From Candidatus Methanoliparum thermophilum (GTDB lineage Archaea > Halobacteriota > Methanoliparia > Methanoliparales > Methanoliparaceae): 64,000 nt of DNA. The notes under the pieces are model-generated. The model was given only the letters and a program-made list of their open reading frames with translations. It was not told where the DNA came from and did no database searches. Within the stretch, counting starts at the first letter, position 1. Each line of letters starts with the position of its first letter. The position numbers and the translations under genes are program-made. Shown here piece after piece: positions 9,945-14,531 of the stretch. The stretch spans positions 62,001 to 126,000 of the forward strand of contig RXIF01000006.1 in NCBI GenBank assembly GCA_004212075.1, read 5' to 3'.

Positions 9945-10144
9945 AACAATCGATATTGTGCTCGAGAGAGAAATTGACAGACCTATAAAATCTGTTTTAA
10001 GCTTTGTCTCGGTGCTTACACGGTATAAACCTGGTAAAATCTGCTCTCCAAGTCATTCAAACCGGCTAAAACACTTTGAAAGATCTCACAGAGGTGTCTC
10101 TTGTAGACATATCCAACTATACTAATGTTCATTGGAGACTTTAC
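9945..10144. other. Intergenic region, nothing recognised
   Basis: These 200 bases separate the secreted protein gene from the 3' end of the broken gene on the opposite strand. I see no gene, RNA or clear hairpin in it. Confidence 0.5.
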
Positions 10145-10882
10145 TTAACAATTCGCAATCTTTTTATATGCATCTTCGTATCCCAACTCCATAATCATAC
10201 CCACAAATTTTAAATGTTCTTCTATTAATGTTCTCACCTCTTCATCCTTCAAGAATTTTTTATAAAAGATTTCTTGTTTTATTTTCCTCTTTAATATATT
10301 TAACGGCGTGCATGGCTCATCAACTATGATCTCTCTTGTTTAAAAGCCCAATATAGAGAGAGCGGTTAAGAGATCTTCTGATGCATTTATACATATATTT
10401 CTCTTTCCTGCTCTACTGGCTATATATTCCGTATCATTTCTTGCTGATTCTATCTCGTAATAAATATCGTCTCGCAGGAGATCCTTTCATTCATCCGTCT
10501 TTATCACGCCTATCCTACCTCTTACTGTTAATAATAATAATATCCTTAGGGCGATATCTCTGGAAAGAAAAAGAGATGAATCTTTTTTATAACAGTATAT
10601 AGTTGTATTATAATTAGCTTTCAACGATGGTAAGATTTCAAATAATGGTTTAGCTGCTTTGTAATCCTGTGCATCTTCAGGCTCCTTCACCAGACCAAGC
10701 TCATTCATCTTCTCTATAACAAACTCATAATCGGCTCCTTCCGCTATTGCTCTCATAAAATCCTCCTGATTTCTTGCTAAATCCAGAAAAATACAGTCAT
10801 AATCATTCTTTTTAAGAATCTCTACCGCTTTTTCTTTTGAATAGCTCGTATTAATTGTTATAAGGTTTGTTAATTCTTTCAT
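10145..10882 (-). pseudogene. Gene of unknown family with two in-frame stop codons
   Basis: One continuous minus-strand frame of 246 codons runs from ATG at 10882 to TAA at 10145-10147, interrupted by TGA at 10487-10489 and TAA at 10340-10342. The sequence reads coherently across both stops: GVIKTDE(*)KDLLRDDIYYEIESARN and TALSILGF(*)TREIIVDEP. No frame change is involved, so sequencing indels do not explain it. The protein is soluble and mixed alpha/beta, with NTSYSKEKAVEILKKNDYDCIFLDL near the start. I do not recognise the family. It is most simply a pseudogene caused by point mutations. Confidence 0.6.
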
Positions 10883-11316
10883 TTCATCGCTTCCGTATAC
10901 CTTTTAAAATTCAATTTAAAAGATTATTGCTTAATTATCTTGAAAGTCTTAAAATCTTGATTTTTGGATGTTACAAAACTTCGACTTTTGAGCAAATCCA
11001 CCAAAATATGTCTTTAAGATGGAAGATAGACTAAATCGTGTATTTGGTGATATTACATTTAAAGTCTAGATAAAATGATTATAGGTTCAATAGGAGATAT
11101 AGAGTATTGGAGAAAGCTTTAAGTTGATAAAGTGAGAGGAGGCTGTGCATAGATGATATTCTAAAACCTGTAAATTGAGAAATATTCAAGGAGTTTCACA
11201 AAGCCCTCTATAAACAAATATTTGCATATCTCGCTTTGGATTTATCTCTGTGCTACAATTTGAGCAAAATTTAGCTCTTTTCCCATCTTTATAGACGTAA
11301 TCTATACCATACAAAT
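10883..11316. other. Long intergenic region holding one possible small zinc-motif ORF
   Basis: Apart from a 42-codon minus-strand frame at 11186-11314, these 434 bases show no gene. The segment from 10900 to 11180 is AT-rich, without clear hairpins. Confidence 0.5.
11186..11314 (-). CDS. Possible small zinc-binding peptide downstream of the transglutaminase gene
   Basis: A TTG at 11314, two bases after the transglutaminase stop, opens a 42-residue frame LYGIDYVYKDGKRAKFCSNC and then STEINPKRDMQIF to GLCETP. The CSNC pair resembles half of a zinc ribbon (compare CxxCGxEINPxxxFC tails of archaeal proteins). It could also be the relic of a longer zinc-ribbon tail. There is no clear ribosome-binding site, so the call is weak. 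Confidence 0.25.
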   Translation of the reverse strand: MYGIDYVYKDGKRAKFCSNCSTEINPKRDMQIFVYRGLCETP

Positions 11317-12020: not shown

Positions 12021-13157
12021 CTAAGAACGCTCCAATTCGATGGCTATCTGCTTCCTGTGAGAGTCGGTATCCCCAAAAGCAAACTCCGCTGCCTTTGTGC
12101 GCAGATAATAGAGCCCAACATCTTCTTCCCTCGTGAATCCAATTGCCCCGTGAATTCTGATACCCTCAATGCAAGTTCGCTGATAAACTTCATTCGCTTT
12201 TGCCTTGCCCATAGATATCAGTAAATCGGATGGAGAACCAACATTTATCATCCATGCCGCCTCATAGACGAGATATCGCAGTCCTTCAATCTCAGTAAAC
12301 ATATCGGCCAATTTATGCTGAATTGCCTGGAATGAACCAATAGGGCGATCAAACTGGACCCTCTCCTTGGCATAATCGTTGGCCATTTCTAGTACGGCTT
12401 GAGCCCCTCCAACCATCTCGGCGCATTTTAAGACCGCTCCCCTTTGGATGATAAAGTTCACCACATCCCATCCTCTGCCCACATCTCCCAAGACATTGTC
12501 TTTGGAAACCTTTACATGATCAAATCTTACCTCACATTGCTTGTCATGTGCCGCAGTAGGGATAACCTCCACCTCCAAGCCTTTGGTCTTTGCAACATCC
12601 ACAATAAAGACTGTGATTCCATCTTTTGGGTTTTTTTCCTCGCTTGTTCGGGCAACAACCAAGAGGCGATCTGCCACGTGAGCGTATGGAACGAAGAGCT
12701 TGGTTCCTTCGAGAATGTACTCCTCCTTTTCTGGAATGGCGCGAAGTTTTATGCCTGATGCTTCATAGGTAACCGATGACTCCATCAAGGCGAGGGTCCA
12801 AATCTCCTCCCCCTTGGCTATCTTGGGAAGAAATTTTTCCTTCTGTCCCTCATCACCATATTCCAGGATGGAGAGAGAAGAAAGAATGGTGGAGAAGAAG
12901 GGGGAGGGGAGAATGTATCTTCCCATCTCTTCTACCAAGATCATTAAGTCGATGAAGTCCCCTTCTGTTCCACCATACTCTTCAGGAAATACGACACCCA
13001 TCCACTCCAGCTCCGCCATCTTTTTCCACATCTCTATGTCGTATCCTCTTTCATCTTCCTCCAACTCTCTTACCTTATCTTTGGAACACTCCTTATTCAG
13101 AAATTCCCTAACCGATGTTTGGAGTATCTTTTGATCCCCTGAAAGATCGAAGTCCAT
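12021..13157 (-). CDS. Acyl-CoA dehydrogenase, subunit with FAD-binding motif but no catalytic Glu
   Basis: This 378-residue acyl-CoA dehydrogenase fold protein carries YAKERVQFDRPIGSFQAIQHKLADM (near residue 262), the family's flavin-contacting signature with its arginine. At the usual catalytic-base positions it has IIQRG (Gln near 238) and AEFAFGDTDSHR near the C-terminus, neither with the expected glutamate. It lies 11 bases after a second acyl-CoA dehydrogenase gene that has the opposite set of motifs. This resembles the paired FadE subunits of actinobacteria that form alpha2beta2 enzymes. Base composition is richer in GC than the flanks, suggesting transfer. Confidence 0.9.
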   Translation of the reverse strand: MDFDLSGDQKILQTSVREFLNKECSKDKVRELEEDERGYDIEMWKKMAELEWMGVVFPEEYGGTEGDFIDLMILVEEMGRYILPSPFFSTILSSLSILEYGDEGQKEKFLPKIAKGEEIWTLALMESSVTYEASGIKLRAIPEKEEYILEGTKLFVPYAHVADRLLVVARTSEEKNPKDGITVFIVDVAKTKGLEVEVIPTAAHDKQCEVRFDHVKVSKDNVLGDVGRGWDVVNFIIQRGAVLKCAEMVGGAQAVLEMANDYAKERVQFDRPIGSFQAIQHKLADMFTEIEGLRYLVYEAAWMINVGSPSDLLISMGKAKANEVYQRTCIEGIRIHGAIGFTREEDVGLYYLRTKAAEFAFGDTDSHRKQIAIELERS

Positions 13158-13168
13158 TTTTTATCCTC

Positions 13169-14368
13169 CTAATACGATTTGGGTAACCCCAACCCAAATT
13201 GACCGATGATGTTCTTCTCGATCTCATCCGTCCCAGCCGAAATCGATATGCCAGGAAAGAGCCAATATAAACTCTCCACGCAACCTCTAAGCTTGGACCA
13301 TCTGGAATCCCGATGTAATGGATCTATTTGAGAGTACGCTCCCAGGATCTCTGTTCCGGTGATAGCCAGCCGCTCTTGCACCTTGTCATTGAAAACTTTG
13401 TCTCTCGATGGCTCGTAAGTGGGCATCTCTCCTTTGCTCATTTTCCAAGTCGTTTGGCTGACAAGCATCCTTTGCATCTCAACTTCAATAGCCATATCAG
13501 CCAATTTACAGCGGATCTCGTGCTTTTGGAAGAGATTGGTCTCCTTGGCATATCTAACCAGCTCGTCCAGTATCCTCTTGTTGTACCCATAGCCTGAGGG
13601 ACCGAGACTGCCCCGCTCGTATGCCAGAGAGGTCATCAACTGATACCACCCTCTATTCTCCTCACCGACCAAGCTGGATTCTGGAACCCTTACATCATCG
13701 AAGAAGACCTCGTTGAAGATGTGGTATCCCGCATAGTTCACCAGAGGATTGACTGTAACGCCCTTGCTCTTCATATCCACGATAAGAACACTGATCCGCT
13801 GATGCTTTTTGGGGGCATTTGGATTGGTTACAGCCGCAAGCCAGCACCATCTTGCCCTGTGGGCAGCACTGGTCCACGTTTTCTGCCCGTTGATAACATA
13901 TTCGTCTTCCTCCCTCACAGCCCGGGTCTGAATATTGGCAAAATCGGAGCCAGCATTGGGTTCACTATATCCTGTGCACCAAACACCGTCTGGCTCTCCA
14001 GAGGCGATTAACGGGAGATATTTCTCCTTCTGCTCCTCGCTACCATACATCATGAGGGAGGGACCTACCCATGCCACCCCACTTATACCCATCATCGTGC
14101 CTGGTATTCCCCAGTACCCAGATTCTTCCAGATATACCAGTTGTTCCCACAGCGAAGCTCCCTTGCCACCGTATTCCTCGGGCCAAGACATCGTGAGCCA
14201 TCCTCTCTCGGAAAGTTTCTTGGATATAGACATGGCAAACGCCCAATCTTCGTCGCGGCTTTCCTCCTCTAACATGACCGTAAGCCATCCCGGCGGAAGC
14301 TCCTCTCTTGCAAACTCACGAATCTCCTCTCTCAACGCCTCTTCTTTCTCGCCAAATTTGAAATCCAT
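13169..14368 (-). CDS. Acyl-CoA dehydrogenase, subunit with likely catalytic Glu
   Basis: The protein has the family's substrate-binding segment CTGYSEPNAGSDFANIQT and LAYERG, where the glutamate (near residue 251 from this start) matches the catalytic base position of isovaleryl/long-chain type enzymes. The flavin signature seen in its neighbour is missing (YAKETNLFQKHEIRCKLADM, no Arg-x-Gln-Phe). The C-terminus is SAGTDEIEKNII. GAGGTG just upstream favours the second methionine at 14368 over 14383. Together with the downstream gene it probably forms one heteromeric enzyme that oxidises an acyl-CoA; the substrate is unknown. Confidence 0.9.
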   Translation of the reverse strand: MDFKFGEKEEALREEIREFAREELPPGWLTVMLEEESRDEDWAFAMSISKKLSERGWLTMSWPEEYGGKGASLWEQLVYLEESGYWGIPGTMMGISGVAWVGPSLMMYGSEEQKEKYLPLIASGEPDGVWCTGYSEPNAGSDFANIQTRAVREEDEYVINGQKTWTSAAHRARWCWLAAVTNPNAPKKHQRISVLIVDMKSKGVTVNPLVNYAGYHIFNEVFFDDVRVPESSLVGEENRGWYQLMTSLAYERGSLGPSGYGYNKRILDELVRYAKETNLFQKHEIRCKLADMAIEVEMQRMLVSQTTWKMSKGEMPTYEPSRDKVFNDKVQERLAITGTEILGAYSQIDPLHRDSRWSKLRGCVESLYWLFPGISISAGTDEIEKNIIGQFGLGLPKSY

Positions 14369-14531
14369 CTTTTTACACCTCATTTTTAATCGTTTATTAT
14401 TTAAAATAATATTTAATTCCTATAATATTTAAATATATCTTTAATAACTTAATTAAACTTAAAATAGAACTTAATTAAACATCTTCTCCGTTGGCGTCTT
14501 TGGCAAATCCTCATCTCTAATATCAGATAAT

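Follow-up and report, generated by a model that had tools for sequence, protein, structure and literature searches.

Results

An adjacent pair of acyl-CoA dehydrogenase genes

The window, meaning the whole stretch of 64,000 nucleotides that was analyzed, is C2:62001-126000 of the archaeal genome G000 (1.26 Mb, 86% complete, 12 contigs). Two adjacent acyl-CoA dehydrogenase (ACAD) genes lie in it on the minus strand. The first, at positions 13169 to 14368, encodes an ACAD of 399 amino acids, called here the alpha subunit, that carries a catalytic glutamate and lacks the clamp that holds the ADP portion of FAD. The second, at positions 12021 to 13157, encodes an ACAD homolog of 378 amino acids, the beta subunit, that carries this clamp and lacks glutamate at both catalytic positions. 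A sequence-only reading of this DNA had described both open reading frames, and they are present as described, including the alpha start. The longest alpha frame extends from 13169 to 14383 (404 amino acids), beginning at an upstream ATG at 14383. Position 14368 was chosen because the orthologs begin there (MDFKF or MDF), and a start at 14383 seems less likely. The number of the catalytic residue in alpha, Glu256, counts from the ATG at 14383.

Only 11 bases separate the alpha stop codon from the beta ATG. A Shine-Dalgarno-like GGAGGA for beta, read from the sequence at 13164 to 13169 (minus strand), touches the alpha stop codon, and translation of the two genes is thus likely to be coupled. 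All three ACAD domains occur in both proteins (Pfam), and the single-chain models adopt the ACAD fold, with a pLDDT of 88 and a pTM of 0.87 for alpha and a pLDDT of 93 and a pTM of 0.92 for beta. The pair is isolated in the window, flanked by a transglutaminase-like gene and a PanE-like gene, and no beta-oxidation genes were seen beside it.

Division of catalytic and flavin-binding residues

Catalytic positions were assigned by aligning profiles to homomeric ACADs, in a stretch free of gaps. In alpha, Glu256 (codon at 13616 to 13618, minus strand), followed by Arg257, occupies the isovaleryl-CoA-dehydrogenase-type catalytic position and also aligns with the Glu-Arg of ChsE4; the Glu-Arg pair is found in all 32 of 32 homologs. 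The MCAD Glu376-type position is taken by A383. The R-x-Q-F clamp was looked for in the alpha sequence and is absent. The clamp occurs in beta as R266-V-Q-F-D-R-P-I273 (RVQFDRPIGSFQ; positions 12339 to 12362, minus strand), and its conservation across 30 beta sequences is high: R266 and Q277 are each present in 30/30, F269 and P272 in 29/30, and Q268 in 28/30. G337 and G340 are likewise invariant across the beta sequences (n = 30). The Q-x-x-G-G of beta, which also contacts FAD, is changed in the window protein, where R334 and A338 are found. The earlier claims that alpha has the catalytic-type glutamate without the flavin signature, and that beta has the signature, are thus borne out in the relatives as well.

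One detail of that reading required correction. It had described beta as having Gln in place of Glu in the motif IIQRG, but the catalytic position is Gly240 (codon at 12438 to 12440, minus strand), and the Gln in question, Q238, lies two residues earlier. The arginine that follows the catalytic position aligns with A241 of beta. Among the 30 beta sequences, column 240 contains Ala (22), Gly (4), Val (2), Leu (1), or Trp (1), and Glu in none. The correction makes the statement stronger than the original because a catalytic glutamate occurs in no beta relative. The Q238 column (Gln 18, Glu 7, Arg 2, Pro 2, Asp 1) is not diagnostic, since glutamate is found there in 7 of the 30 related beta subunits. 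The idea that those seven (motif LEKA) retain a catalytic glutamate was dropped, as that residue belongs to the Q238 column, two residues off. The remaining claim, that beta has no glutamate at the alternative position, stands: F361 is found there, and glutamate occurs at column 361 in 0/30 relatives. Judged from these alignments, the defects of alpha and beta are complementary and are kept across the whole family.

Relationship to heteromeric and homomeric ACADs

In published alpha2beta2 ACADs, FAD is held by both subunits: its isoalloxazine ring is bound by alpha, which also has the glutamate and the substrate, and its ADP-ribose is bound by beta (PMC11153573). Such tetramers have two active sites and two FADs, and both subunits are needed; a fused form, CasC, has also been described (reviewed in PMC8399759). 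When a profile of alpha relatives was compared with PDB chains, the best score was obtained with ChsE4 (4x28_A, 356 bits), followed by Tcur3483 (6wy8/6wy9, 324 bits), versus 253 bits for the best homomeric ACAD. A Foldseek search with the alpha model agreed, its best four matches being the alpha chains of the ChsE4-ChsE5 and Tcur3481-3483 heterotetramers.

The closest solved structures are therefore steroid ACADs, FadE26-27 among them, and the sequence-only reading had drawn a link to steroid degradation. A heteromer with a FadE26-29 function would also fit some bacterial relatives, in which the pair lies near genes for ChsH2-type OB-fold (DUF35) proteins and SCP2-like thiolases, kinds of parts that are also used in steroid side-chain cleavage. 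Yet the identity is only ∼32%, and the key glycine of the steroid type (Gly363 of Tcur3483, changed in 6wy9, the G363A variant of 6wy8) corresponds to Ser382 in the window alpha and to Ala in the nearest bacterial sisters. Alpha scores equally well with the dicarboxylate enzyme PimC, and steroid genes were looked for next to the window pair and none were seen. The proposed link is thus not supported, and we consider a steroid-type enzyme improbable. Pimeloyl-CoA dehydrogenase was itself tried as the identity of the pair and rejected, with the PimC and PimD models (TIGR03204 and TIGR03203) giving 215.2 and 192.1 bits, far under their curated cut-offs of 623.85 and 652.7 bits, respectively.

The beta subunit gave a more mixed picture. 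Homomeric ACADs score above heteromer beta chains with the beta profile, and in the Foldseek search with the beta model, 6wy8_A and 6wy8_C rank third and fourth. Class profiles built here drew a clean line between the classes, placing the window alpha with the alpha class (606 bits, versus 256 bits for the homomeric profile) and the window beta with the beta class (607 versus 292 bits), and every other archaeal ACAD examined preferred the homomeric profile. A beta-class gene lies at most one gene away from alpha in 47 of 73 testable relatives; the other 26 alphas have none within one gene, so some of them would have a partner elsewhere or work alone. A natural beta-alpha fusion of 814 amino acids is encoded in an Acidimicrobiia genome (L128:10331-12775, plus strand). 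In it, R-x-Q-F and QIHGGIG are present only in the first, beta half, and the catalytic Glu-Arg (GFERN) only in the second, alpha half.

These data bear on whether the two proteins might be separate homomeric ACADs that are neighbors by chance and whose active sites are atypical yet functional. The full three-domain fold and confident models of both proteins, the sequence proximity of beta to homomeric ACADs, and the absence of a beta neighbor for some alpha relatives would all be expected of such enzymes. However, the complementary losses are fixed across the whole family, alpha is nearest to the alpha chains of heterotetramers, and the two subunits occur naturally fused. In addition, their trees are congruent, and they were transferred as a single unit, with DNA similarity ending at the borders of the pair (see below). 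Two independent homomers are, in light of this, quite improbable.

In a number of Dehalococcoidia/Chloroflexi loci (L074, L075, L076, L078, L079, L081, L082, L083, L084, and L086), two different alphas are followed by one beta. This suggests that a single beta is common to two catalytic alphas in those bacteria.

Proposed enzyme

The best explanation of the pair, as the sequence-only reading had proposed, is a heteromer. The conserved complementary losses, the proximity of alpha to the alpha chains of solved alpha2beta2 enzymes, the L128 fusion, and the published division of the active site all point in this direction. Taken as a whole, the pair is very probably a bacterial-type heteromeric ACAD, most likely an alpha2beta2 enzyme with two FADs, that was acquired from Thermodesulfobacteriota-related bacteria. 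We infer the quaternary structure, the FAD count, and the activity as follows. One FAD would sit at each alpha/beta interface, where the pocket for flavin and substrate, along with Glu256 as catalytic base, would come from alpha and the ADP-ribose end would be clamped by the R266-x-Q-F of beta. The pocket of beta itself would be dead (Gly240 and Phe361), and alpha would be unable to clamp a second FAD; for these reasons, four subunits would have two active sites and neither subunit would work alone. The reaction would be the oxidation of acyl-CoA to 2-enoyl-CoA, with the electrons passing to ETF, for which genes were found in the G000 genome.

It might instead be proposed that the enzyme is a homotetramer of alpha that binds FAD less tightly and that beta is a non-catalytic scaffold or regulator without FAD. 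Every catalytic residue is indeed in alpha, and beta lacks glutamate at both positions. But R266-x-Q-F is among the best-kept parts of beta (R266 in 30/30), a degree of conservation that would make little sense if beta did not bind FAD, and the beta of solved relatives binds the ADP-ribose of FAD (PMC11153573). An alpha-only enzyme is accordingly very improbable.

Origin of the pair by transfer

The nearest relatives of the pair outside Methanoliparia are bacterial. The Desulfobacterales bin CR_Bin_129 shows 78 to 79% identity in alpha and 73% in beta, Syntrophaceae CG2_30_49_12 shows 76% and 66%, and other deltaproteobacterial bins show 73 to 74% and 69%. An alpha-type ACAD was found in only 2 of 295 genomes of the phylum, namely, G000, which contains the window, and G004, "Candidatus Methanolliviera" sp. 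GoM_oil, of a related genus. The pair is accordingly present in two of the five sampled genomes of the Methanoliparia family; no alpha-type ACAD was found in G001, of the same genus as G000, or in G002 and G003 of the Methanolliviera group, all of which are incomplete genomes. Separate alpha and beta trees are congruent. In both, the window and G004 sequences are sister to the Desulfobacterales pair, inside the Thermodesulfobacteriota clade, and a concatenated alpha and beta tree supports the sister branch at 97/93. A constraint holding the four nearest bacterial rows together was mildly rejected (AU p 0.035). Under vertical descent, the bacteria should form one clade apart from the archaea and divergence should be ordinary; the opposite was seen.

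The G004 copy lies on an 18,199-base contig (C19, CABGHG010000019.1) whose GC content, 0.44, is normal for that genome and which has other Methanoliparia-type genes. Among 50 reciprocal best hits that link G000 with G004, the pair is the strongest outlier, at 93.7% (alpha) and 85.5% (beta) amino acid identity, versus a median of 57.7% and a next-best value of 80.9%. At the nucleotide level the two genes are 91 and 87% identical, and fourfold sites are 0.70 and 0.73 identical, versus 0.28 to 0.35 for orthologs of ordinary divergence. The DNA similarity spans positions 12021 to 14385 of the window and ends at the borders of the pair. Composition was also informative. The pair had been described as richer in GC than its flanks, and blocks of 1 kb indeed have a GC content of 0.47 to 0.48 in the pair versus 0.35 to 0.38 beside it. 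The GC3 values in G000 are 0.57 and 0.50 for alpha and beta, versus 0.32 ± 0.05 in other genes, and those in G004 are 0.60 and 0.56, versus 0.46 ± 0.06 for the genome. The pair thus looks foreign in both genomes, since its GC3 exceeds that of the genome in each.

The transfer from bacteria that the sequence-only reading had suggested is strongly backed by the trees, the identity outliers, and the composition, and acquisition of the pair from Thermodesulfobacteriota-related (sulfate-reducer-type) bacteria is well supported. Because the G000 and G004 copies are far more alike than vertical orthologs, a further step must have taken place, and two histories fit: the pair entered once and was then exchanged from one genus to the other, or it came in on two occasions from close donors. 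Vertical inheritance or an assembly artifact, with the GC difference arising by chance, is exceedingly improbable: although G000 is an incomplete assembly of 12 contigs, and the flanking transglutaminase-like and PanE-like genes, sought side by side as an empty site, occur together in no same-family or same-genus genome, the pair is also present in the second, independent GoM_oil assembly on a contig of normal GC, its copies differ in DNA and hence are not contamination by one common strain, its fourfold sites are far more alike than those of vertical orthologs (∼0.33), and the alpha type is confined to 2 of the 295 genomes.

A second recent exchange between G000 and G004 was apparently seen elsewhere. 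Three adjacent genes at L062:12064-15218 (G000 contig C1) and L154:797-4355 (G004) have 60 to 65% of fourfold sites in common, the usual proportion being about one-third. They resemble genes for an ABC transporter of a metal or cobalamin.

Gene neighborhoods and possible substrates

In G004, the gene row that holds the pair also encodes a third ACAD, an AMP-forming acyl-CoA ligase, and a small hydrophobic protein. The neighbors of the bacterial pairs were surveyed at 45 loci; the most frequent were genes for 3-hydroxyacyl-CoA dehydrogenase/enoyl-CoA hydratase (17 loci), SCP2-like thiolase (15), acyl-CoA carboxylase (10), beta-keto acid cleavage enzyme (10), and DUF35 OB-fold protein (9). Those neighbors would be consistent with a beta-oxidation that has extra steps for awkward acyl groups. 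Known heteromeric ACADs act on the side chains of sterols or bile acids or are required when dicarboxylates serve as the growth substrate (PMC8399759, PMC12543098). As a guess, made with low confidence, the substrate of the archaeal pair may be a bulky, ring-ended, branched, or omega-carboxylated acyl-CoA derived from oil hydrocarbons, not a plain fatty acyl-CoA.

We tentatively put forward, as a doubtful but possible role, that the pair is an accessory, exchangeable enzyme with which certain Methanoliparia strains oxidize acyl-CoAs beyond the reach of their own homomeric ACADs, namely, branched or ring-ended ones derived from alkylcyclohexanes, alkylbenzenes, or isoprenoid alkanes. Bacterial cassettes handed on from strain to strain and from genus to genus would then determine the hydrocarbon range of these archaea. 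If this is true, the pair broadens what alkane-degrading methanogens can feed on. The pair makes the substrate range of these archaea testable through a single two-gene cassette.

Other ACAD-linked genes were noted in Methanoliparia. A second adjacent pair of ACAD homologs, outside the window on G000 contig C7 (L060:8663-9937 and 9945-11189, minus strand), has members that are 34% alike, and an orthologous pair is present in G002 (contig C163). Neither member has a glutamate at either known catalytic position or an R-x-Q-F clamp. The best match of one member is cyclohex-1-ene-1-carboxyl-CoA dehydrogenase (7p98, 67 bits); the other matches the cyclohexane-1-carbonyl-CoA dehydrogenase family at 128 bits, far under the cut-off. 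This pair was considered as a second case of complementary alpha and beta ACADs and rejected, the catalytic glutamate being in neither member. Four small, repetitive, amphipathic proteins of 143 to 237 amino acids, all encoded on the minus strand (L061:17040-17612, L061:17698-18144, L060:7949-8662, and L164:13307-13738), were also found; two of the four lie in gene rows that contain an ACAD. The protein at L061:17698-18144 has relatives in four of five Methanoliparia-family genomes, with 3 to 13 matches per genome, and in 0 of 95 other genomes searched. No confident Pfam match was obtained. As a guess, these small proteins might act at hydrocarbon or lipid surfaces.

Comparison with known systems

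The ChsE4-ChsE5 enzyme (FadE26-FadE27) of Mycobacterium tuberculosis (PDB 4x28) resembles the window pair in having two ACAD subunits, with the glutamate and substrate site in alpha and the ADP-ribose clamp in beta. It differs in acting on a steroid C26-oyl-CoA, in sharing only ∼32% identity, and in its flavin loop, which is G-G-G versus S382-A-G in the window alpha. The bile-acid ACAD Tcur3481-Tcur3483 of Thermomonospora curvata (PDB 6wy8/6wy9) is the best fold match of the alpha model, and its residues are divided alike, but the identity is 33 to 34% and its key Gly363 is Ser382 here. PimC/PimD is likewise a two-gene ACAD, and PimC is the best NCBIfam model for alpha. For PimCD-like, dicarboxylate-specific pairs of beta-proteobacteria, a heterotetramer has been proposed, and a phenotype on C8 to C12 dicarboxylates was reported (PMC12543098).

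The nearest systems are the unnamed alpha-beta pairs of Thermodesulfobacteriota and Dehalococcoidia (L066 to L110), none of which has been characterized. The closest of them are orthologs, with 73 to 79% identity in alpha and 66 to 73% in beta and the same gene order, and many of the Dehalococcoidia have two alphas and one beta. Unlike the window pair, these pairs are bacterial and often stand beside genes for 3-hydroxyacyl-CoA dehydrogenase, thiolase, acyl-CoA carboxylase, or BKACE. A literature search found no paper naming a heteromeric ACAD in archaea, which is limited evidence of absence. The heteromeric ACADs described so far come from bacterial degraders of steroids, bile acids, or dicarboxylates. 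The one predicted here belongs to an archaeon from a group that converts oil hydrocarbons to methane; the bacterial lineage that donated it is clear, and a further archaeal genus took part in a second exchange or a second entry. Enzymes of this kind are already known from bacteria; what is new is the presence of one, by transfer, in this archaeal lineage.
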